Source of the DNA: an uncultured Clostridia bacterium
GTDB taxonomy: Bacteria > Bacillota > Clostridia > Saccharofermentanales > Saccharofermentanaceae
Reading direction: 5' to 3'
DNA: 64,000 nt
NCBI GenBank assembly: GCA_947304405.1
Contig: CAMZBB010000002.1
Coordinates: forward strand, 1-64,000
Positions 39,967 to 54,193 of the stretch are shown here, in pieces. Every line of letters starts with the position of its first letter. Position 1 is the first letter of the stretch. A model generated the notes under the pieces. That model saw nothing but the letters and a program-made list of their open reading frames with translations, was not told where the DNA came from and did not search any database. Made by a program: the position numbers and the translations under genes.

Positions 39967-41961
39967 ATGCCGAGTAAGAAGGATTACGGCAACGAGAGCA
40001 TTTCGATGCTCAAGGGCGCTGACAGAGTCAGATTAAGGCCGGCCGTTATTTTCGGATCAGACAATCTCGAAGGCTGCATACATTCTTTTTTCGAGATCCT
40101 GTCCAATTCGATCGATGAAGCGCGTGAAGGCTACGGAGACAAGATAATCGTAACGAGGTTCCCTGACGGAACGATCGAGGTTGAGGACTTCGGACGTGGC
40201 ATCCCGCTTGACTATAACGCGAAAGAGGGAAGATATAACTGGGAACTGGTATACTGCGAGCTTTACGCAGGCGGCAAGTACAACAATAACAGTTCAGGCG
40301 ATTATGAGTTTTCGCTCGGACTCAACGGCCTTGGCGCCTGTGCCACACAGTATGCTTCGGAATTCTTTGAAGTAACGGTCTTCCGCGACAAGACCAAGTA
40401 TTCGATGTCTTTTGCCAAGGGCAATCCCGTGACGGATCTTGTTACCGAGCCCTACAGATTCTTAAGGACCGGTACGATCCAGAGATGGAGGCCTGATACC
40501 GAGGTCTTTACCGAGACGATAATCCCGCTTGAGGTCTTCAAGGAGATAATCAAGCGTCAGTCTGTCATAAACAGCGGTATTGAATTCATACTCAAGGATG
40601 CAGAATCAGGTGAAGAATTCTCTTATATCTATCCCGAAGGCATCAAGGGTTATGTCGATGAACTTAGCGACATGAAGGGCTTTACCGATACATATACGTT
40701 CTCAGGTGAAGGCAGAGGCAGAGATAAGGAAGACCGTGACGAATATAAGGTCAGAGCTGAAGTTGCTTTCTGCTTCAACAATGAGATAAATGCTCTGGAA
40801 TACTTCCATAATTCAAGCTTCCTCGAGCACGGCGGTTCACCTGATAAGGCTGTCAGGAATGCTTTTGTAGCAGAGATAGACAAGCAGATCAAGCAGCGAG
40901 ACAAGTATAAAGCGAATGAGTCAAAGATCACTTTCCAGGATATTGCTGATTCTCTGATCCTTGTTACCAATACGTTCTCCACACAGACTTCATACGAGAA
41001 CCAGACCAAAAAGGCGATCAACAACAAGTTCATTCAGGACTTCATGACGCAGCTCATCAGGGACAACCTTGAGATCTGGTTTATCGAGAATAAGGATTTT
41101 GCGGCTAAGACCATCGAGCAGATCCTTATCAATAAGCGTGCGCGTGAGAATGCCGAGAAGGCTAAGGTCAACATTAAGAAGACCCTCATGGGCAAGGTCG
41201 ATATCAACAACAGGATCAAGAAATTCGTTGACTGCAGGACCAAGGATGTTGCAAAGCGTGAGCTCTATATCGTTGAGGGTGATTCCGCTTTGGGTTCTGT
41301 CAAGCTCGGCCGTGATGCTGAATTCCAGGCTGTAATGCCTGTAAGAGGTAAGATATTAAACTGCCTCAAGGCTGATTACGCGACCATTTTTAAGAGTGAG
41401 ATCATTACGGATCTTCTTAAGGTTTTGGGATGCGGCGTCGAGATCAAGAACAAACATACAAAGGATATGAGTGCATTTAATCTTGACGATCTGAGATGGA
41501 ACAAGATCATAATATGTACCGATGCCGATGTAGACGGTTTCCAGATCAGGACGCTGATACTTGCAATGCTCTACAGGCTTACGCCTACGCTTATCGAGAA
41601 GGGCTATGTCTATGTAGCGGAATCTCCGCTTTTCGAGATCACATACAGACCTAAGGGTAAGAACGCGCAGGAAGAGACTTTTTTCGCGTTTAACGAGAAG
41701 GAAAAGACCGAGATCCTTGCCAAAGTCGATCCCAAGCTCTGCACGATCCAGAGATCCAAAGGTTTGGGTGAGAATGAGCCTGAGATGATGTGGAAGACAA
41801 CCATGAATCCGAAGTCCAGAAGGCTTATCAAGGCTTGTCCCGAAGATGCGATGAGGACCGCCGAGGTCTTTGATCTTCTCCTCGGAGATAACCTCGCAGG
41901 AAGAAAACTCCATATCGAGATGGACGGCAAGAAGTATCTCGATATGCTTGATTTAGGGTGA
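39967..41961 (+). CDS. Type IIA DNA topoisomerase subunit B (ParE/GyrB-like, divergent)
   Basis: NSIDEA, VEDFGRGIP, YIVEGDSALGSVKLGRD, CTDADVDGFQIRTLIL. Confidence 0.9.
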   Translation: MPSKKDYGNESISMLKGADRVRLRPAVIFGSDNLEGCIHSFFEILSNSIDEAREGYGDKIIVTRFPDGTIEVEDFGRGIPLDYNAKEGRYNWELVYCELYAGGKYNNNSSGDYEFSLGLNGLGACATQYASEFFEVTVFRDKTKYSMSFAKGNPVTDLVTEPYRFLRTGTIQRWRPDTEVFTETIIPLEVFKEIIKRQSVINSGIEFILKDAESGEEFSYIYPEGIKGYVDELSDMKGFTDTYTFSGEGRGRDKEDRDEYKVRAEVAFCFNNEINALEYFHNSSFLEHGGSPDKAVRNAFVAEIDKQIKQRDKYKANESKITFQDIADSLILVTNTFSTQTSYENQTKKAINNKFIQDFMTQLIRDNLEIWFIENKDFAAKTIEQILINKRARENAEKAKVNIKKTLMGKVDINNRIKKFVDCRTKDVAKRELYIVEGDSALGSVKLGRDAEFQAVMPVRGKILNCLKADYATIFKSEIITDLLKVLGCGVEIKNKHTKDMSAFNLDDLRWNKIIICTDADVDGFQIRTLILAMLYRLTPTLIEKGYVYVAESPLFEITYRPKGKNAQEETFFAFNEKEKTEILAKVDPKLCTIQRSKGLGENEPEMMWKTTMNPKSRRLIKACPEDAMRTAEVFDLLLGDNLAGRKLHIEMDGKKYLDMLDLG

Positions 41962-41966
41962 TGTAA

Positions 41967-44228
41967 ATGGCACGTAAGAAAAAAGATGATTTTAATTCAG
42001 ACTCACTTAAGGCAAAGCTTACTGACAGCAATGCCAAGGACATGCCGGCAATAGACCAGCCTATTACGGAGATGCTCGAGATCAATTACATGCCTTATGC
42101 AATGAGTGTCATTGTATCCCGTGCCATTCCCGAGATCGACGGTTTTAAGCCTTCGCACCGCAAGCTCCTCTATACGATGTATAAAATGGGACTTTTGGGA
42201 GGCAACAGGACTAAGTCAGCAAACGTAGTCGGTCAGACCATGAAGCTCAATCCTCACGGTGATCAGGCTATTTACGACACGATGGTAAGGCTTACCAGAG
42301 GCAACGGTTCATTGCTGCATCCTTTTGTTGATTCAAAGGGTAACTTCGGTAAGCAGTATTCCAGAGACATGCAGTGTGCTGCGCCCCGTTATACGGAAGT
42401 CAGACTTGAGAAGATATGTGAAGAGATCTTTAAGGGTATCGACAAAGATGCCGTCGATATGATCGATAACTACGACGGCACGCTTAAGGAACCTACGCTT
42501 CTTCCTACAACATTCCCGGCAGTCCTTGTCAATGCCAATCAGGGTATAGCCGTTGGTATGGCTTCCAATATATGTTCGTTCAATCTCGCTGAAGTCTGCG
42601 CTGCTGCAGAAGCTTATCTGAGAGATCCGAACACTGATCTTTTGGAGATAATGCCGGCACCTGACTTTTCGGGCGGCGGAAAGATACTTTACGATAAGGA
42701 ACAGATGAAGGCCATCTACGATACCGGTAAGGGTACTTTTTCCGTGAGAGCCAAGTATCAGGTCGATAAGGCGAAAAACCTTATTGAGATCACCGAGATC
42801 CCTTATTCCACAAGCGTTGAGGCTATAATTGATAACATCGCTGATCTTGTTAAAGCAGGAAAGGCTAAAGAGATCGCGGATATCAGAGACGAGACTGACT
42901 TGGACGGCCTTAAGATCACAATCGACTGCAAGCGCGGTACCGACCACGAGCAGCTCATGACAAAGCTCTTCAGATTTACCAAGCTCGAAGATACTTTCTC
43001 ATGCAATTTCAATATCCTTATCGACGGTTCGCCCAGAGTATTGGGAATCGCCCAGATCCTTGACGAATGGCTCAAATGGAGAAGGACATGCGTTTGCCGT
43101 GAACTTGCTTTCAATCTTGATAAGATGAAGAAGAGGCTTCACCTGTTAGACGGTCTCGCGGTTATCCTTCTGGATATCGATAAAGCCATCAAGATCATCA
43201 GAGAGACGGAACTTGAAGCTGACGTTGTTCCTAACCTCATGAAGGGCTTCAGCATCGATGAAGAGCAGGCTGAATATGTTGCGGAGATCAAGCTCCGTAA
43301 CATCAATAAGCAGTATATCCTGAACAGGATCTCTGACAGGGATAAGCTCAAGGCGGATATCGCTGATACCGAAGATCTTTTGGGGAGCCCGAGAAGGATC
43401 AATAATCTCATTGCCAAGACATTGAAAGAAGTTGCAGAGAAATACGGCCAGCCCAGAAAATCTGAACTTGTCGGCATGGAAGAGACAGAGACATTTGAAG
43501 AGTCTGCGGTCATTCCCGATTACAGGCTTCACCTCATGCTTACGCGTCACGGCTATCTTAAGAAGCACACCATGAAATCGCTTCAGAATGCCGGAGAGCT
43601 TAAGACAAAAGACGATGACGAGATCTTCATGGGCTTTGAGTGCGAGAACAAGTCAGACCTGCTTATCTTTACCGATAAGTGCAATCTCTATAAGACACAT
43701 GTCTATGAGTTTGCAGACACGAAGCCCGGCGATCTCGGATACTTCCTTTCGAATGAGCTCGGAATGGAAGACGGTGAGAGACCTATGTTCATGATCTCTA
43801 CGACAGACTATAAGGGAATACTCTTCATTGCTTTCGAGAACGGAAAAGCTGCGAGATTCCCGATCAGCGCATATGAGACAAAGCAGAACAGAAAGAAGCT
43901 TGTAAATGCTTTCTATGACGGCAGCAGGCCGGTGGGATTCAAGTTCCTTAATGAGGATGAGGATCCGGATATGGTGGCTACCAGCAGTATAGACAAGGCG
44001 GTTGTATTCAGGTCATCACTTGTTCCTCTCAAGACGACAAGGACGACGCAGGGCGTACAGCTTTTGCTCTCAAAGAAGGGTTCAGTGTTAAAGAGTCTGT
44101 CGTTGCTCGCAGAGGTCGAAGTTGAGGATTCTGAGTATTACCGTATCCGCAAGTTGCCGGCCATCGGCTATTACATAAGGGAGAAATCCCTCGAGGCAAA
44201 GCAGATAAGCTTTGATGATCTGAAGTGA
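41967..44228 (+). CDS. Type IIA DNA topoisomerase subunit A (ParC/GyrA-like, divergent)
   Basis: DGFKPSHRKLLYTM, NPHGDQAIYDTMVRL, QYSRDMQCAAPRYTEVRL. Confidence 0.9.
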   Translation: MARKKKDDFNSDSLKAKLTDSNAKDMPAIDQPITEMLEINYMPYAMSVIVSRAIPEIDGFKPSHRKLLYTMYKMGLLGGNRTKSANVVGQTMKLNPHGDQAIYDTMVRLTRGNGSLLHPFVDSKGNFGKQYSRDMQCAAPRYTEVRLEKICEEIFKGIDKDAVDMIDNYDGTLKEPTLLPTTFPAVLVNANQGIAVGMASNICSFNLAEVCAAAEAYLRDPNTDLLEIMPAPDFSGGGKILYDKEQMKAIYDTGKGTFSVRAKYQVDKAKNLIEITEIPYSTSVEAIIDNIADLVKAGKAKEIADIRDETDLDGLKITIDCKRGTDHEQLMTKLFRFTKLEDTFSCNFNILIDGSPRVLGIAQILDEWLKWRRTCVCRELAFNLDKMKKRLHLLDGLAVILLDIDKAIKIIRETELEADVVPNLMKGFSIDEEQAEYVAEIKLRNINKQYILNRISDRDKLKADIADTEDLLGSPRRINNLIAKTLKEVAEKYGQPRKSELVGMEETETFEESAVIPDYRLHLMLTRHGYLKKHTMKSLQNAGELKTKDDDEIFMGFECENKSDLLIFTDKCNLYKTHVYEFADTKPGDLGYFLSNELGMEDGERPMFMISTTDYKGILFIAFENGKAARFPISAYETKQNRKKLVNAFYDGSRPVGFKFLNEDEDPDMVATSSIDKAVVFRSSLVPLKTTRTTQGVQLLLSKKGSVLKSLSLLAEVEVEDSEYYRIRKLPAIGYYIREKSLEAKQISFDDLK

Positions 44229-46246: not shown

Positions 46247-46693
46247 ATGTCTAAAATTGATAGGCTTACAAATCTTACCGAAAACGAAGAGATCCTTTGG
46301 CAGGACAGAAAAAGATATCTGGGGCTTCCGTTGTCATTTACAATCTATTCTTTCAGCAAGAATAAGTTTTATCTTAAGACGGGAATCTTTAACACAAAAT
46401 CGGAAGAGATCCTGCTATACCGTATCCTCGATATAACCTACAAGCAGTCGTTTGGCCAGAAGATCTTCGGAGTGGGTTCAGTCATACTTAACACAGCTGA
46501 TAAGACCACGCCTATTCTTGAGATCAGAAGCATAAAGACACCTGACAGAGTCCGCAAGGCTTTGAGCAATCTCGTTGAACAGAGAAGGGATGAGAAGCGC
46601 GTAGCAGGCAAGGAAATGTTCGGTGCTGCCGCGACCTTCGACGATGTGGGTGATGGCGATTTTGATCTTGACGGTATTGTGGATCACCATTGA
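46247..46693 (+). CDS. Bacterial PH-domain protein
   Basis: FTIYSFSKNKFYLKTGIFNTKSEEILLYRILDI. Confidence 0.65.
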   Translation: MSKIDRLTNLTENEEILWQDRKRYLGLPLSFTIYSFSKNKFYLKTGIFNTKSEEILLYRILDITYKQSFGQKIFGVGSVILNTADKTTPILEIRSIKTPDRVRKALSNLVEQRRDEKRVAGKEMFGAAATFDDVGDGDFDLDGIVDHH

Positions 46694-46730: not shown

Positions 46731-47750
46731 ATGGAAACCAGGATTGACAGGCTAGGAAGCGTTAGGGAAGACAAGTTGCGTCAGCTCAAGCAGCTGATTG
46801 CTGAATCTGAATACATTGTTTTTCTTGGCGGTGCCGGTGTTTCTACTGAAAGCGGTATTCCTGATTTCAGGAGCGGTACCGGTATATACAATTCCGACAG
46901 CGGAATGAAATACAGGCCGATAGACATTATTGCCCACGACTTCTTCATGGAGCATCCTGCTGATTTCTTCGACTTTTACAAGCGTAAGCTCATATATCCC
47001 GATGCAAGGCCCAACAAGGCTCATAAGGCACTTGTAAGGCTTGAGAAGCAGGGTAAGCTCAAGGCCATAATCACTCAGAATATTGATAACCTTCATCAGG
47101 AAGCCGGAAGCAAGTGCGTCATCGAACTTCACGGTTCTGTTTTCAGGAATTACTGCATGGATTGTGGCAAGAAGTATGATCTTGAATATGTGGTTGCTCA
47201 GGAAGGCGTTCCGCACTGTGAGAAATGCGGCGGCATGGTCAGGCCTGACATCGTTCTTTATGAAGAGAACCTCAATCACAAAGACGTTGATGACGCCATC
47301 AAGGCAGTTAAGAAGTGCGACCTTCTGATCATCGCCGGAACATCGCTTACTGTTTATCCGGCCGCAACTTTTGCCCAGTTCCTTAAGCATGACAGGATAG
47401 TCATTATCAATAAGAGTTCGACTTATATGGATCTTAAGGCTTTGCTTACGATCCACGACAATGTCGGCGACGTGCTTGATGCGTGCGTTCCTAAGCGTGC
47501 AAGCAGGGCGAAGAGCGCTTCTTCTAAAACTACTAAAGCTAAATCCAAGACTGCGGCTTCAAAGACTTCTGCCAAGACTTCTGCAAAAACAAAGCCGGCT
47601 TCCAAAGCGAAAACACCGGCAAAAGAAACATCCGCCAAGACCACTGCGAAAAAAGCAGCAACTGCCAAAAAGGCACCGGCAAAGAAGGCTCCGGCAAAGA
47701 AGCCCACATCGTCTAAATCTGCAGGAAAAGTGAATGACGGCAAGGCTTAA
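46731..47750 (+). CDS. NAD-dependent protein deacylase (sirtuin) with Lys/Ala-rich C-terminal tail
   Basis: GGAGVSTESGIPDFRSGTG, ITQNIDNLHQEAG, ELHGS, CMDC..CEKC; tail KTAKKAATAKKAPAKKAPAKK. Confidence 0.9.
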   Translation: METRIDRLGSVREDKLRQLKQLIAESEYIVFLGGAGVSTESGIPDFRSGTGIYNSDSGMKYRPIDIIAHDFFMEHPADFFDFYKRKLIYPDARPNKAHKALVRLEKQGKLKAIITQNIDNLHQEAGSKCVIELHGSVFRNYCMDCGKKYDLEYVVAQEGVPHCEKCGGMVRPDIVLYEENLNHKDVDDAIKAVKKCDLLIIAGTSLTVYPAATFAQFLKHDRIVIINKSSTYMDLKALLTIHDNVGDVLDACVPKRASRAKSASSKTTKAKSKTAASKTSAKTSAKTKPASKAKTPAKETSAKTTAKKAATAKKAPAKKAPAKKPTSSKSAGKVNDGKA

Positions 47751-49596
47751 GTTTTTCGAAGACAAGAATAAAGATATTGAACAGTCAATGATGCTGCACG
47801 GGCGCAAAAGCGTTACGTTCAGCATTTTGCGTTTTGCATTATTCATTGCAGCTGTCGTATTCCTCGTCATGGCAATAACAGGGAAGAATACTGCATTCTA
47901 TTTTGTTTTTGCGGCTATTGTCATTGCTTTTACCGTTCTGTGCATCATTCACGGCAAGATCACTGCAAAGCTCAAATACTATGAAGCTTTATCAAATGTT
48001 AATTCCCGTTATATTGCAAGGATAAAGGGCGATTTTGATCTTCTTTTCGAACTTGTCTGCAAGGACCTTAAGAGGAGGGATGAGAAAGAAGAGGCCAGAA
48101 GATCTGCAGGCGGTAATGAGTTCTACATAGGCGATCACGATTACTGCATGGATCTTGACCTTTTCGGTAAGAAGTCGTTGTTCTCGCTTCTTAATGTCTC
48201 TGAAACATCATTTGGAAAAAGAGCTTTTGCAGGTGAACTCATGGGGCATGGAAATAAAGTAAGATCTGCTTCTGACATCATTGTCAGACAGGGCGCTGTT
48301 AAAGAATTATCCGATGATCCCGATTTCCTTTTGAAGTATCAGGCCACGGCTTTGTTGGGAAACATGAAAAAGGATCCGAAAGCACTTATTGATTTCGCCT
48401 CTGATAAAAAGCCCGTAAAGAAGCACTACGTTACGATATCGGTACTTCTTATTTGTCTCTGGCTTATTCCTTTAGCTTCGCTGATATTCTTTCCCGCATT
48501 TGTACGTGCTTCAGTGCTGGGCGTTCTTCTGATAAACCTTTTATCCTGGGTTTCAGGATTTAAGACAAACGCATATTATTTCACGGCTGCCGACGGTATG
48601 CCTTTGCAGGTCTCAACCATACATAAGCTTTATTCTTTGCTTGAGTCATCCGGACTTAAAGACGATTATCTGAGATCCCTTATTTCAGGAAAAGACGGCA
48701 AGGCGGTAACGTCTTCGTTATCATCGCTTTCCGTAATATTGTTCTTCTCCGGATTGAGGAGCCAGCCTTTGTTTGCTTTCCTTTTCAACAGCGTTTTGCC
48801 GCTCGATTATCTGATCTGCTATAACATGGGAAAATGGGCGGACAGTTTCGGGGACAGCCTTTATCATTCGGTTTACAATCTGGCTGAGATCGAGACTTTG
48901 ATGTGCGCATCGCAGATTTCATTTATCAGCGACGTTTGCTCTTTCCCTGAGATAGAGAAAAGTGATAATCCGGAAGACAATGCCTATTTTGCAGGAGAAG
49001 ATATCAAGCATCCGCTTCTTGCTCCGGATACCGCTGTCAGCAATTCCGTCACGATCAGATCTGACATAGCGCTTATAACAGGTTCTAACATGTCCGGAAA
49101 GACTACGCTCATCAGGACGGTCGGAGTTTGTTCTATCCTTGCTTATATGGGTTCGAAAGTTCCTTGCCGCTCTTTGTCTTTGGGAAGGATGAGGATAATG
49201 TCTTCCATGAGGATAACCGACAACTTAGGTGAGGACATGAGTACTTTCAAAGCTGAACTTGTCCGCATATCAGAGATCATTAAGAGTGCGAAAGAAGATG
49301 AGACGGCGCTTTTGTTCCTTATCGATGAGATCTTCCGCGGCACCAATTCAGACGACCGTACGGAAGGCGCACTGATCGTTCTTAAGAATCTGTCTTCTCC
49401 GCGCATCTGCGGAATGATGACAACTCATGATTACGCAATGATCGATAAGACAGTTGATTCATATAAGAATATCTGCTATTACCATTTCTCCGAAAAGTAC
49501 ACGGATACGGGTATTTCTTTTGACTATAAGCTCTCTGACGGCATAAGCCGTGAGTCAAATGCAAGATTCCTTATGAGGTTGGTTGGAATCGAATAA
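47734..49596 (+). CDS. Membrane-anchored MutS-family ATPase
   Basis: GSNMSGKTTLIRT Walker A, FLIDEIFRGTNSDDRTEGA, TTHDYAM; several hydrophobic helices; 17-nt overlap with sirtuin ORF. Confidence 0.8.
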   Translation: MTARLKFFEDKNKDIEQSMMLHGRKSVTFSILRFALFIAAVVFLVMAITGKNTAFYFVFAAIVIAFTVLCIIHGKITAKLKYYEALSNVNSRYIARIKGDFDLLFELVCKDLKRRDEKEEARRSAGGNEFYIGDHDYCMDLDLFGKKSLFSLLNVSETSFGKRAFAGELMGHGNKVRSASDIIVRQGAVKELSDDPDFLLKYQATALLGNMKKDPKALIDFASDKKPVKKHYVTISVLLICLWLIPLASLIFFPAFVRASVLGVLLINLLSWVSGFKTNAYYFTAADGMPLQVSTIHKLYSLLESSGLKDDYLRSLISGKDGKAVTSSLSSLSVILFFSGLRSQPLFAFLFNSVLPLDYLICYNMGKWADSFGDSLYHSVYNLAEIETLMCASQISFISDVCSFPEIEKSDNPEDNAYFAGEDIKHPLLAPDTAVSNSVTIRSDIALITGSNMSGKTTLIRTVGVCSILAYMGSKVPCRSLSLGRMRIMSSMRITDNLGEDMSTFKAELVRISEIIKSAKEDETALLFLIDEIFRGTNSDDRTEGALIVLKNLSSPRICGMMTTHDYAMIDKTVDSYKNICYYHFSEKYTDTGISFDYKLSDGISRESNARFLMRLVGIE

Positions 49597-49701: not shown

Positions 49702-51438
49702 ATGTTAGAAGAGTTAAGTGGTTATAAATCCATTTTCCTTGACTATTCAGTCCTTATAGAGTACGCAGGTACTCCGGTAATGGACGGACTTATGAGAGTC
49801 CTTGATTACGGCATGGATGTGTATGTTGATAAATCCTTCAAGGCACTTCATTATTGTACCCTGCATATAAAGGATCCCAAGGACCTCAAGGCTGCAGCTG
49901 CCATGAAGAAGATCTGTTCATATCTGCTTGCAGAGAACAGGCTGCATCTTATCAAGGAGATCGCCATCGATAAAGTCGCCGTCAATATCAATGAGATATC
50001 AGACGGTTGCTGCGTCCTGACCACGAGAAACTCGATCTTTACTAAGAGATTATATGAGAAGATGCCTTACTTGGGCTGTGATATTGCCATTATCGCAAAG
50101 GGTGTCCTCAATATCTTCGATTCGATCGATTCTTTGTGCTTCTCGTTCCCTAAGCAGGAGCCCAGCCGGCTTGCGTATAACAGTTCTTATATCGAGTCGT
50201 TCGGCAGCGCCAGCATCTCCGATGTTGTCGTTACGGATAAAGATGTCAAGTATGAGCTCGTTAAACGTCTCAGCGGCGGTGCAGAGGGCATGGTGTTTAC
50301 GACCAACCGTGAAGGCCATATCGTCAAGATATACCACAAGGGCATTATCACCCCGCTCCGTTGGGCAAAGCTCAAGAAGCTTACCGAGCTCGGAATCTCC
50401 GGTAATGGTTTCTGCATTCCCAAGGAACTTGTATATTTCCGCAATTCTCCTGTCGGTTATACGATGACTCTGGGCAAGGGAACTACGCTCGGAACTGTTT
50501 TCGACGGGCCTGATGCCATGCTCGAAGCTTTCCCGGAGTGGACGAGATGTGATGTCGTTAAGACTCTTCTTTCGCTTATTGAGAAGTATATATATCTTCA
50601 TATGCATGATGTCGTTGTAGGCGACATACAGTTGAAGAATGCGTTGATCGATACGTCTTCGGATGTTTATCTCATCGACATGGACAGCGTTCAGATCGGC
50701 AATCTTCCTTGTCCGGTCGGTACAGAAGAGTTTACTGATCAGAGATTATGGGGCAAGGATTTCTCCAAGTTCTTAAGGGAATTGAGGGATGAGGATTATT
50801 CGATCGCGATGCTTGTTTTCTCAGTCCTTTTCTGCGGGCTTCATCCTTATGCTACCCGTAATGGTGCTGAGACGCTCAAAGAAGAGATCGTAAACTATAA
50901 CTTCCCTTACAATTTCGAGAATGAATCGGAGTTCATTCCGGTTGGCGGTTACGATCACATCTGGGAATATACTTCTGACAGACTTCGTAAGATGCTCTAT
51001 GAGACGTTTAAGAACGGATGGTCATTTGACACGCTCGAATGGCTTGATGCTGTCGTTAAATACAAAGAAGATCTAGAGAACTTCGTCTACGATGATCCCG
51101 AAGCATATAAGCTTTTCCCGAAAGAGAACTATAAGCAGGCTTCAGTTGATGTGGAAGAGGCAAGAGAGAATCTGAAGCGTAATGCCGGCAAGTCCAAGCC
51201 TGCCGCACAGCCTGATCGTAATCAGGCACCTGCGCCGGTTCAGTCCGAACCTTCAGAGCCTGCAGTTTTCGGCAAGCCTATATTTGCCAGACCTGAAGAA
51301 CCTGTATCTAATGCAAATTCTCCTTTCGCGAAGAAGACTTTTGCCAATGTTCCTACGGGAAAATACATTCCCAAGGATCAGCTTCACGACCAGGATGATG
51401 AGGTTGCAAAAAAGAAGAAGTTCTTCGGATTATTCTGA
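49702..51438 (+). CDS. Protein kinase-like protein with N-terminal PIN-like domain
   Basis: N-term FLDYSVLIEYAG...DGCCVLTTRNSIFTKRL PIN-like; kinase LSGGAEGMVF, VKIYHKG, VVGDIQLKNALID, LIDMDSVQ, VGTEEFTDQR. Confidence 0.7.
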   Translation: MLEELSGYKSIFLDYSVLIEYAGTPVMDGLMRVLDYGMDVYVDKSFKALHYCTLHIKDPKDLKAAAAMKKICSYLLAENRLHLIKEIAIDKVAVNINEISDGCCVLTTRNSIFTKRLYEKMPYLGCDIAIIAKGVLNIFDSIDSLCFSFPKQEPSRLAYNSSYIESFGSASISDVVVTDKDVKYELVKRLSGGAEGMVFTTNREGHIVKIYHKGIITPLRWAKLKKLTELGISGNGFCIPKELVYFRNSPVGYTMTLGKGTTLGTVFDGPDAMLEAFPEWTRCDVVKTLLSLIEKYIYLHMHDVVVGDIQLKNALIDTSSDVYLIDMDSVQIGNLPCPVGTEEFTDQRLWGKDFSKFLRELRDEDYSIAMLVFSVLFCGLHPYATRNGAETLKEEIVNYNFPYNFENESEFIPVGGYDHIWEYTSDRLRKMLYETFKNGWSFDTLEWLDAVVKYKEDLENFVYDDPEAYKLFPKENYKQASVDVEEARENLKRNAGKSKPAAQPDRNQAPAPVQSEPSEPAVFGKPIFARPEEPVSNANSPFAKKTFANVPTGKYIPKDQLHDQDDEVAKKKKFFGLF

Positions 51439-51501
51439 TAATTTCCATCACATTATGTATATAATGGAACTGTTCAGATTGTTTTGATCGGAGGTCTTAT
51501 T

Positions 51502-52236
51502 ATGGGAGAGATGTTCAGTTCTGCGGATTTCGGTACAAGCACAAAAAGGAGACTTCCTATCTGTTTCGCGCTTGATACTTCCGGTTCGATGATGGGTAAT
51601 CCGATAAAGCAGCTCAATATGGGTTTGCAGAACTTCCTGGCATCGATAAAGAACAATGACGATACCCGTTCATCTACTGATATAGCTATCATTACATTCG
51701 GCTCAAAAGTCGAGATCGTAATGCCTTTCGGAAAGATCGCCAAGGACAAGGGCGTTCCTGAGATCACAGCATCAACTACTCTGACTCCTATCGGTGAAGG
51801 TATCCTTACTGCTTTGGAGCTCCTCAACGCACGTAAAGAGGGTTATAAGCAGATGGGTATCAAATACTATCAGCCCTGGCTGGTAGTCATTACGGACGGA
51901 GCTCCGCAGGGCCCTAATGCCATGCAGAATATGGAGCTTGCGATCAAAGCATGTAACGAGCTTGAAGCTAACGATAAGCTTGTCATTTTTAATATCGGTG
52001 TTGGTTCTGGTGTTGATTTCGATATCTTGAGGAGGCTTTCAGTTAAGCGTGAGGAGCCTATCTCGGTCAACTCTACTGATTTTGCTAAACTGTTCGAATT
52101 CCTCGGTTCGTCTTCTTCGTCCATCGTTTCTTCGGGAATGAGCGACGACGCACTTTATCACATCAATACGGCTCCTACCGGAGATGCAGTTGGTGTTGAT
52201 GATTTCATGAAGTTCATTAACGAGGATGACAACTGA
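51502..52236 (+). CDS. vWA-domain protein (TerY-like)
   Basis: CFALDTSGSMMGNPIKQLN MIDAS motif DxSxS, VVITDGAPQG. Confidence 0.85.
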   Translation: MGEMFSSADFGTSTKRRLPICFALDTSGSMMGNPIKQLNMGLQNFLASIKNNDDTRSSTDIAIITFGSKVEIVMPFGKIAKDKGVPEITASTTLTPIGEGILTALELLNARKEGYKQMGIKYYQPWLVVITDGAPQGPNAMQNMELAIKACNELEANDKLVIFNIGVGSGVDFDILRRLSVKREEPISVNSTDFAKLFEFLGSSSSSIVSSGMSDDALYHINTAPTGDAVGVDDFMKFINEDDN

Positions 52237-53321
52237 TGTATTCGGGAATCACCGTCGGCTGTGTTACCACCATCGGAAATAAGCATATCAACAGGCAGGT
52301 GCCTTGCGAGGATGCTTCTTTCGCGATGCAGAAGAACGGTGTTTCCGTTGTTTGTATTGCTGACGGCGCAGGCGGAAAGAAATATACACATGCCAGATTT
52401 GGTTCGGCTTGTGCAGTCAAGACGATTTCCGAGATACTTGCCGATCATTTTGACGCGCTGTACAGCGAGAACAGGGAAGCGGCCGTAAGATCTTATCTTA
52501 TGGCGAAGATCAGGATCGAATTTGCGGACATAATCGCAGAGAAAGAATTGGATACCCTTGATCAGCTGTCCTGCACTTTGCTGTTTGTTGCCGTAAAAGA
52601 CAGAAGAATGATCATCGGTCATTTGGGAGACGGCCTGGTAGTAAGGATATCTCCTTCGGGACTGTCGCCGTTCTCAATGCCCCAGAACGAGAAGGACGGT
52701 ACGACATTCTTCATTACTGCCGGTCACGCCGCTGATTACATGCGATTCATCAAGACTACAGTTGATGACTGTCATGCCGTTGCTCTGATGACTGACGGCG
52801 TTCAGGACAACGTCTATGATGAGGATTCCGGTCTGGTCAAACCCGTTGTGGCTAAGATGACCGAGACTTTCGCGGAAGGCCGTGAGAAGGGCGAAGAACA
52901 GATCAAAGAAATCCTTGAGAAATATATCGTCGGTTCGAGCAATGTCAGTGATGACTCCTCTTTTGGCGTTCTGCTCTTTGAGGGCACCCCGGCTCCTGAC
53001 GTTTCATCTCTTGAGAGCAGTGCCGGCAAGTTCGGTACTTCCGATGAGAACTTCAAGAGTGTTGCCATGTCGATCAAAGAGGATCTGATAAAGGCTTCTG
53101 AGATAATCAGTTCCGCTGCGTCAAAATCTGAAGAGGGCAAAGAAGAGGAAGCAAATAAAGAACCTGAGTCTGAGCCGGTTCCCGAGAAGACTGAACCCGA
53201 GCCTGCTATCGATCCTTCCGACGTTGCTGTTAAGTCGAGCAAATTTAATATTCCTGCCTTGATATTCGGCATTGCCTGTATAATAGAACTGATCATCATT
53301 GTTTTGCTGCTGGTTTTCTGA
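52236..53321 (+). CDS. PP2C-like protein phosphatase with C-terminal TM helix
   Basis: VVCIADGAGGKKYTHARFGS, GHLGDGLVV, LMTDGVQDNVYDED; TGATG coupling with vWA gene. Confidence 0.8.
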   Translation: MYSGITVGCVTTIGNKHINRQVPCEDASFAMQKNGVSVVCIADGAGGKKYTHARFGSACAVKTISEILADHFDALYSENREAAVRSYLMAKIRIEFADIIAEKELDTLDQLSCTLLFVAVKDRRMIIGHLGDGLVVRISPSGLSPFSMPQNEKDGTTFFITAGHAADYMRFIKTTVDDCHAVALMTDGVQDNVYDEDSGLVKPVVAKMTETFAEGREKGEEQIKEILEKYIVGSSNVSDDSSFGVLLFEGTPAPDVSSLESSAGKFGTSDENFKSVAMSIKEDLIKASEIISSAASKSEEGKEEEANKEPESEPVPEKTEPEPAIDPSDVAVKSSKFNIPALIFGIACIIELIIIVLLLVF

Positions 53322-53335
53322 CTTAGGAGGCTACC

Positions 53336-54193
53336 ATGAGTGACGAAAGAAAATACGAAGTACTTCCCGGCGTAGAATTACCTGACATGAAATCTATCAA
53401 TGCGGCCGCATCGGATTTCTCTGTGTCCGGAGTCTCGGATATTCAGATCAAGAGTCCCAAGCCTTCCTATACATCTGAAGGAAAGGCCGCAGACATGGCT
53501 ACGGCTGAGGAACTGGCTATGCTTCAGTCCTTGGGTGACCAGGTCGCTGCTGATGAAGCCCGTGCCGCAGCAGAGAGCCGCAGACGTATGGATAACATCC
53601 TTGCCAATGCCGTCCAGAAGCCCGAATCTATCGTTGATCTCTTGAATTACAACAGGGACAAAGTCTCCGAGGAACGTATCAAAGAGAAAGAAGAAGAGTT
53701 GAAAAAGGCTGAAGAAATCAAGAAGGCTGCTGAGGAAAAGGAACGCCAGAGAGAAGAGAGAAGACAGTTGCAGCAGCGTCTGTTGATGGAGGCTCGTGAA
53801 CGTGCCGCTGCAATGAGGGAGGCTGAAAAACGAGGGATCAAGGCTAATGAATCTCTTATCGAGAATAATGAAGGTGAATCAGAAGCTGAAAATGAATCCA
53901 AAAATGAAACCGAAACCAAGCCTAAGGCTGAACCCGAGGTTGCTCCCGTAAAAGAGACCGAATCAGAACCCGAAATGTCATTTGCTGATCCGGATAAGGT
54001 GTTTGCCTCTGCTCCTGCCAAGATCGAATCTGAAAAACCTGCACCGGAACCTGTCAAGGAACCAGAAAAGCAGCAGGAGATGCCTGCGCCTAAGAAACCT
54101 GAAAAGAAGATCGAGGAACCTGTTAAGCCTTCGATAGCATCTGCTGAAGAGACATTTGACGACTTCAGCGAATTCCTTGACGGCAACAAGTGA
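53336..54193 (+). CDS. Charged Glu/Lys-rich coiled-coil protein
   Basis: EERIKEKEEELKKAEEIKKAAEEKERQREERRQLQQRLL; acidic Pro-rich C-terminal part; 15 nt after phosphatase. Confidence 0.6.
   Translation: MSDERKYEVLPGVELPDMKSINAAASDFSVSGVSDIQIKSPKPSYTSEGKAADMATAEELAMLQSLGDQVAADEARAAAESRRRMDNILANAVQKPESIVDLLNYNRDKVSEERIKEKEEELKKAEEIKKAAEEKERQREERRQLQQRLLMEARERAAAMREAEKRGIKANESLIENNEGESEAENESKNETETKPKAEPEVAPVKETESEPEMSFADPDKVFASAPAKIESEKPAPEPVKEPEKQQEMPAPKKPEKKIEEPVKPSIASAEETFDDFSEFLDGNK

Follow-up and report, generated by a model that had tools for sequence, protein, structure and literature searches.

We found that a sirtuin gene in the 64,000-nucleotide stretch of DNA analysed here (the window), which comes from an uncultured Clostridia bacterium, encodes an intact catalytic core followed by a long, strongly basic, H1-like C-terminal tail, and that a basic tail at this place is kept throughout the genus. 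The sirtuin core and such tails on other proteins are already known, and what appears to be new, judging from the open-access literature, is their combination in a bacterial sirtuin. We suggest that the tail may be a shared polyanion-binding tether that concentrates the deacylase at lysine-tailed proteins, a reading to which we give slightly less than an even chance and in which the substrates are speculative.

The tailed sirtuin and its reading frame

The gene (46731..47750, + strand) starts with ATG, stops with TAA and encodes a product of 339 aa, composed of an NAD-dependent protein deacylase core and the basic C-terminal tail. The core (46770..47486, + strand; residues 14-252) was delimited by a match to the NAD-dependent protein deacylase model NF001752 of NCBIfam, which scores 330 bits over residues 14-252 (cut-off 221), by alignment and by the predicted structure. 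The Pfam SIR2 profile PF02146 also matches, with 186 bits against a cut-off of 24 (residues 34-210). The motifs GAG (34-36), GIPDFR (42-47), (T)QNID (116-119) and HG (134-135) are present together with the zinc cysteines C142/C145 and C163/C166, and the catalytic and zinc residues are without change across a 45-sequence alignment. The initial annotation had described a complete sirtuin core with GAG, TQNID, HG and two CxxC pairs, and these motifs and the profile scores above the cut-offs bear it out. Among solved structures, the best sequence match is Thermotoga maritima Sir2 (1yc5), with archaeal Sir2 proteins close behind, and the AlphaFold2 model computed from the alignment has pLDDT values mostly above 90 in the core. 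The core is complete, with Rossmann NAD motifs, the catalytic HG, TQNID and a Cys4 zinc site, and is predicted to be a deacylase. Its pI is 6.3.

The H1-like disordered tail (47487..47747, + strand; residues 253-339) was defined by composition, conservation and the AlphaFold2 model. It has 87 residues, namely 25 K, 22 A, 13 S, 12 T, 6 P, 2 R, 1 D and 1 E, so that K, A, S, T and P make up 90% of it, with a net charge of +25 and a pI of 11.3, which agrees with the earlier description of about 80 residues composed almost only of these five amino acids. Residues 261-339 have pLDDT values of 38-49 and no predicted secondary structure, which is consistent with disorder, and the tail fits the long, K/A/P/S/T-rich, disordered and strongly basic segment of H1-like proteins (HC2, AlgP and PhaF). 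When all 30,838 sixty-residue stretches of the six-frame open reading frames of the window were scanned for composition, only 33 reached at least 85% KASTP with at least 25% K, and these overlap one another and all come from the sirtuin tail. The composition is more than chance would give.

The initial annotation had named the absence of the tail from close homologues, or frame errors creating it, as grounds for refutation, and neither was borne out. Each of the 79 genus orthologues read, which come from separate assemblies and lie at the same locus, has a reading frame that continues into a C-terminal extension, and the frame is open in all orthologues, among them YRB3002 (L097), whose record, unlike most, carries no MAG label. 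In five close pairs that align gap-free in the tail, differences at codon positions 1, 2 and 3 number 21, 9 and 63 over 359 codons, and because the third positions vary most, the tail behaves as coding sequence. The second position, which separates K from A, S, T and P, changes least; with C as the second base, first-position changes only swap A, S, T and P among themselves. A frame error or assembly artefact as the source of the tail is ruled out by the 79 orthologues together with this codon-position pattern. The last tail codons (47721..47750, + strand; ..SAGKVNDGKA) form a translational coupling zone that holds a possible ribosome-binding site, AGGAAAAGTG, and the ATG of the next gene (47734). 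The C-terminus SAGKVNDG or SAGKVNGG is common to the closest relatives, because the gene that overlaps it downstream has its start codon, and probably also its ribosome-binding site, within these codons.

Distribution of the tail and conservation of the locus

An orthologue with at least 69% core identity is present in 107 of the 115 genomes of the family, and in the rest of the order, beyond the family, the best matches to the sirtuin are 47-55% identical. We read 95 orthologues from the family, 79 of them from the genus. K/A/S/T-rich tails were found in 76 of the 95 (67 in the genus and 9 in one other genus), two of the 67 being only 20-24 residues long. Twelve family orthologues carry instead an unrelated charged tail, for example RRTPEQIKKDEKLIAKNEAREKAAREKAKLKEKG, which is probably helical as read from the sequence only, and in seven, from three other genera, the C-terminal end is short, not basic or missing. 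The replacement tails within the genus have net charges of +7 to +13 and contain 4-6 arginines. Tail length within the genus ranges from 20 to 105 residues, the net tail charge is positive in every genus orthologue read, and its median across the 95 family orthologues is +19; the sequence of the tail changes, but its lysine spacing and charge are retained. On a maximum-likelihood core tree, the distribution of the K/A/S/T label requires 6 changes, of which 5 or more fall on well supported branches. Since the replacement tail of one subgroup is still basic, it is basicity rather than H1-like sequence that is kept. The variable length, together with the short, absent or non-basic ends in sister genera, indicates that the core function does not need the tail.

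The sequence ends directly behind the core in homologues outside the family (about 46-58% identity) and in the second sirtuin of the same genome (contig C14, a 262-aa frame). These tailless proteins rule out the tail as a general sirtuin feature, and the tailed orthologues of the family rule it out as an oddity private to a single genome. A search of the open-access literature turned up no other bacterial sirtuin tailed in this way, but one may exist elsewhere.

The sirtuin lies in the order topoisomerase B, topoisomerase A, an uncharacterised 632-aa protein, bPH_2, tailed sirtuin and MutS-like ATPase, followed by kinase-like, VWA and PP2C genes. The divergent type II topoisomerase B and A subunits (39967..44228, + strand) are conserved neighbours whose best family scores are well below every gyrase/topo IV equivalog cut-off. 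The small bacterial PH-domain (bPH_2) protein (46247..46693, + strand), directly upstream of the sirtuin, is also a conserved neighbour, and the MutS domain V (MutS/KamC-like) ATPase (47734..49596, + strand), which overlaps the sirtuin 3' end, is found in the same order in all orthologous loci read. Gene order is kept around the orthologues as far as the DNA examined reaches, with some insertions in more distant genera, and this supports the orthology of the tailed sirtuins. The neighbourhood is mildly suggestive of a chromosome-related setting, no more. The kinase-like, VWA and PP2C phosphatase genes form a conserved block at 49702-54193 of the window, which looks like a Ser/Thr phosphorylation module; the kinase-like protein has weak similarity to lanthionine synthetase LanL/LanKC models.

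Similar tails on other proteins and a proposed role of the sirtuin tail

The tails of the genome were counted by pattern searches, which give a lower bound. Repeats of the KKxxxKKx type gave 24 matches in the genome against 1 for the control pattern, while the pattern KxKxxKxK gave zero and KxKxKx gave fewer than its control. C-terminal AKK/KPAA-type tails are present on glycogen branching enzyme (GlgB, C4:6951), glycogen synthase (GlgA, C4:11034-11116) and trigger factor (C4:46371-46480), that of the last being K/A/E/P-rich with KKTAAKKTTAKKAEDAEAPAEEKP repeats. N-terminal tails of like composition are carried by polyphosphate kinase (PPK, C12:11308; H1-like KPAA/AKK, as in GlgA and GlgB) and by ParB (C96:3606; L187, L279; about 60 AKK-rich residues). 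Like repeats are also carried by one probable secreted protein, in an internal segment, and by two small basic proteins (C12:18105-18319 and C74:6801), which consist almost entirely of AAKKPAAKK- or KTTSKKSS-like sequence apart from a short C-terminal domain that ends in ..G.GVDLF or ..G.SVSLF. One of the two has DUF6465 and HC2 matches just below the cut-offs, and the other is similar in layout. The single HU of the genome has no tail. The tails of GlgA, GlgB, trigger factor and PPK rule out the possibility that the tail is specific to nucleoid proteins. Those of GlgB, GlgA and PPK resemble the tails with which PhaF and AlgP anchor storage granules to the nucleoid.

The GlgB tail was found in all 30 relatives read, as was the PPK tail, which is short in two of them. 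The ParB tail is present in near relatives and absent from the genomes read that have helical-tailed sirtuins; in several more distant genus members, the ParB N-terminus is merely short (MAxxKGLGKGLGA). Across genomes, lengths correlate, with a raw Spearman coefficient of 0.63 for PPK and 0.49 for ParB frame length. However, phylogenetically independent pairs give no support for a coordinated gain or loss of tails, the independent changes being too few, and the raw correlation is unsupported once relatedness is controlled for.

The initial annotation had reasoned from an H1-like tail to DNA binding and from there to a nucleoid-tethered deacetylase. The H1-like tail and its conservation hold, but the tail is not nucleoid-specific, considering the tails of GlgB, GlgA, trigger factor, PPK and ParB and the association of AlgP with polyphosphate granules (PMC9239181). 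The description therefore needs widening to a member of a protein set with interchangeable basic tails. Because the same genome has tails on GlgA, GlgB, trigger factor, PPK, ParB and the DUF6465-like proteins and not on HU, we suggest that the sirtuin tail is best read as a shared tether. The tether is inferred from the AlgP and PhaF tails, the action of CobB1 on HupS, the activation of SIRT7 and the extensions of mammalian sirtuins taken together. According to this proposal, a cytosolic NAD-dependent protein deacylase similar to Sir2Tm and SrtN would have acquired a long C-terminal tail, disordered and polybasic, by which it is electrostatically tethered to polyanions, with chromosomal DNA the likeliest and RNA or polyphosphate as alternatives. 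Binding of polyanions by the tail is probable; chromosomal DNA as its main partner is possible but somewhat doubtful, and nucleoid tethering of the sirtuin is plausible. The tether would raise the local concentration of the sirtuin where lysine-rich acetylatable tails sit, the tailed neighbours in the polyanion-rich phase being ParB, the small basic DUF6465-like proteins, PPK, GlgA, GlgB and trigger factor. By stripping acyl groups from tail lysines, the enzyme would restore their charge and polyanion binding, and the NAD+ level would thereby be linked to how tightly the tailed proteins stay in this phase. That other lysine tails are its substrates is speculative and rather unlikely; deacetylation of such proteins would have a precedent in CobB1 acting on HupS (PMC11229371). 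The direction of regulation is likewise speculative.

The intact core, the tail in every genus orthologue, the conserved gene order, the persistent charge and lysine spacing, the basic replacement tails within the genus and the same-composition tails elsewhere in the genome are all consistent with a tether. The variable length of the tail within the genus, the short, absent or non-basic ends in sister genera, the tailless HU and the unsupported co-variation count against it, and a role confined to the nucleoid is hard to reconcile with the similar tails on trigger factor and the glycogen enzymes. It is also conceivable, although unlikely, that the tail takes the sirtuin not to the nucleoid but to a phase rich in polyphosphate, RNA or storage granules, together with PPK, GlgA and GlgB, and so couples NAD+ to storage metabolism. 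These three proteins carry like tails, genus-wide for GlgB and PPK, and the KPAA tail of AlgP goes with polyphosphate granules and that of PhaF with PHA granules (PMC9239181). However, ParB is also tailed, the sirtuin is neighboured by a topoisomerase pair and a MutS-like ATPase with no storage genes, and the granule and nucleoid readings overlap, since the AlgP and PhaF tails are believed to link granules with DNA.

The fast change in tail length and sequence, and the like tails on functionally unrelated proteins with none in sister genera, could also be explained by a nearly neutral low-complexity expansion in a lineage with a bias towards adding disordered ends rich in lysine and alanine (slippage-like repeats), which would be tolerated for solubility and have no binding role. 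We consider this somewhat less likely still than the granule phase, as every genus orthologue read has the tail, its net charge in the genus is always positive, the second codon position is conserved, and the tail stays basic where its type switches within the genus. Quite improbable is a tail that serves as self-substrate, with the core deacetylating the acetylated lysines of its own tail and the charge or binding of the tail reporting the NAD+ level. Many lysines are tethered beside the active site, and in mammalian sirtuins autoregulation and modification are known to occur at the extensions (PMC8556138), but the replacement tails hold 4-6 arginines, residues not open to this kind of acetylation.

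A bacterial sirtuin usually consists of no more than its catalytic domain and acts on a broad range of substrates. If the shared tether is real, a lineage-wide tethered sirtuin would be a simple and testable way to direct a deacylase to a compartment, and the same tether would mark a defined protein set in these cells. It would also link NAD+ status with the chromosome and with storage granules in rumen Clostridia that are abundant but little studied. The fullest form of the proposal, to which we give only a small chance, is a shared-tail system in which unrelated proteins of chromosome partition, glycogen, polyphosphate and chaperone functions and small basic proteins carry interchangeable H1-like tails, and a same-tailed sirtuin drawn to the same phase erases their acetylation, with NAD+ setting the hold. 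Such a system would be a bacterial counterpart of histone-tail deacetylation, with disordered tails in place of histones.

Comparison with known systems

The catalytic core, zinc site and NAD motifs are like those of T. maritima Sir2 (1yc5) and of Firmicutes subclass-U sirtuins such as B. subtilis SrtN, both of which, unlike the window sirtuin, have no long basic tail. Most bacterial sirtuins are without extensive regions beyond the catalytic domain, and the extensions of mammalian sirtuins serve localisation and regulation (PMC8556138). Human SIRT7, likewise a sirtuin, is activated by DNA and RNA (PMC6253933), a likeness by description and not by sequence comparison; it is a eukaryotic class IV enzyme, unlike the window sirtuin.

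The K/A/P-rich composition is shared with chlamydial HC2 and the histone H1-like family PF07382, but the tailed sirtuin has no match to this profile at E 0.001, whereas the DUF6465-like protein and the PPK tail of the genome match it weakly, both below the cut-off. The KPAA tails of AlgP and PhaF from Pseudomonas resemble the sirtuin tail in composition and predicted disorder. Peptides from KPAA tails bind to DNA in vitro, and the positioning of polyphosphate granules by AlgP depends on the AlgP tail (PMC9239181); these tails sit on granule-associated proteins, whereas the tail in the window sits on a deacylase. The sirtuin CobB1 of Streptomyces venezuelae removes acetyl groups from HupS, a protein with a lysine-rich segment, and increases the DNA affinity of HupS, so that a bacterial sirtuin is likewise tied to a lysine-rich H1-like tail and to nucleoid compaction (PMC11229371). 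There the tail is on the HU-type substrate HupS, whereas in the genome studied here HU is tailless and the tail is on the sirtuin itself.
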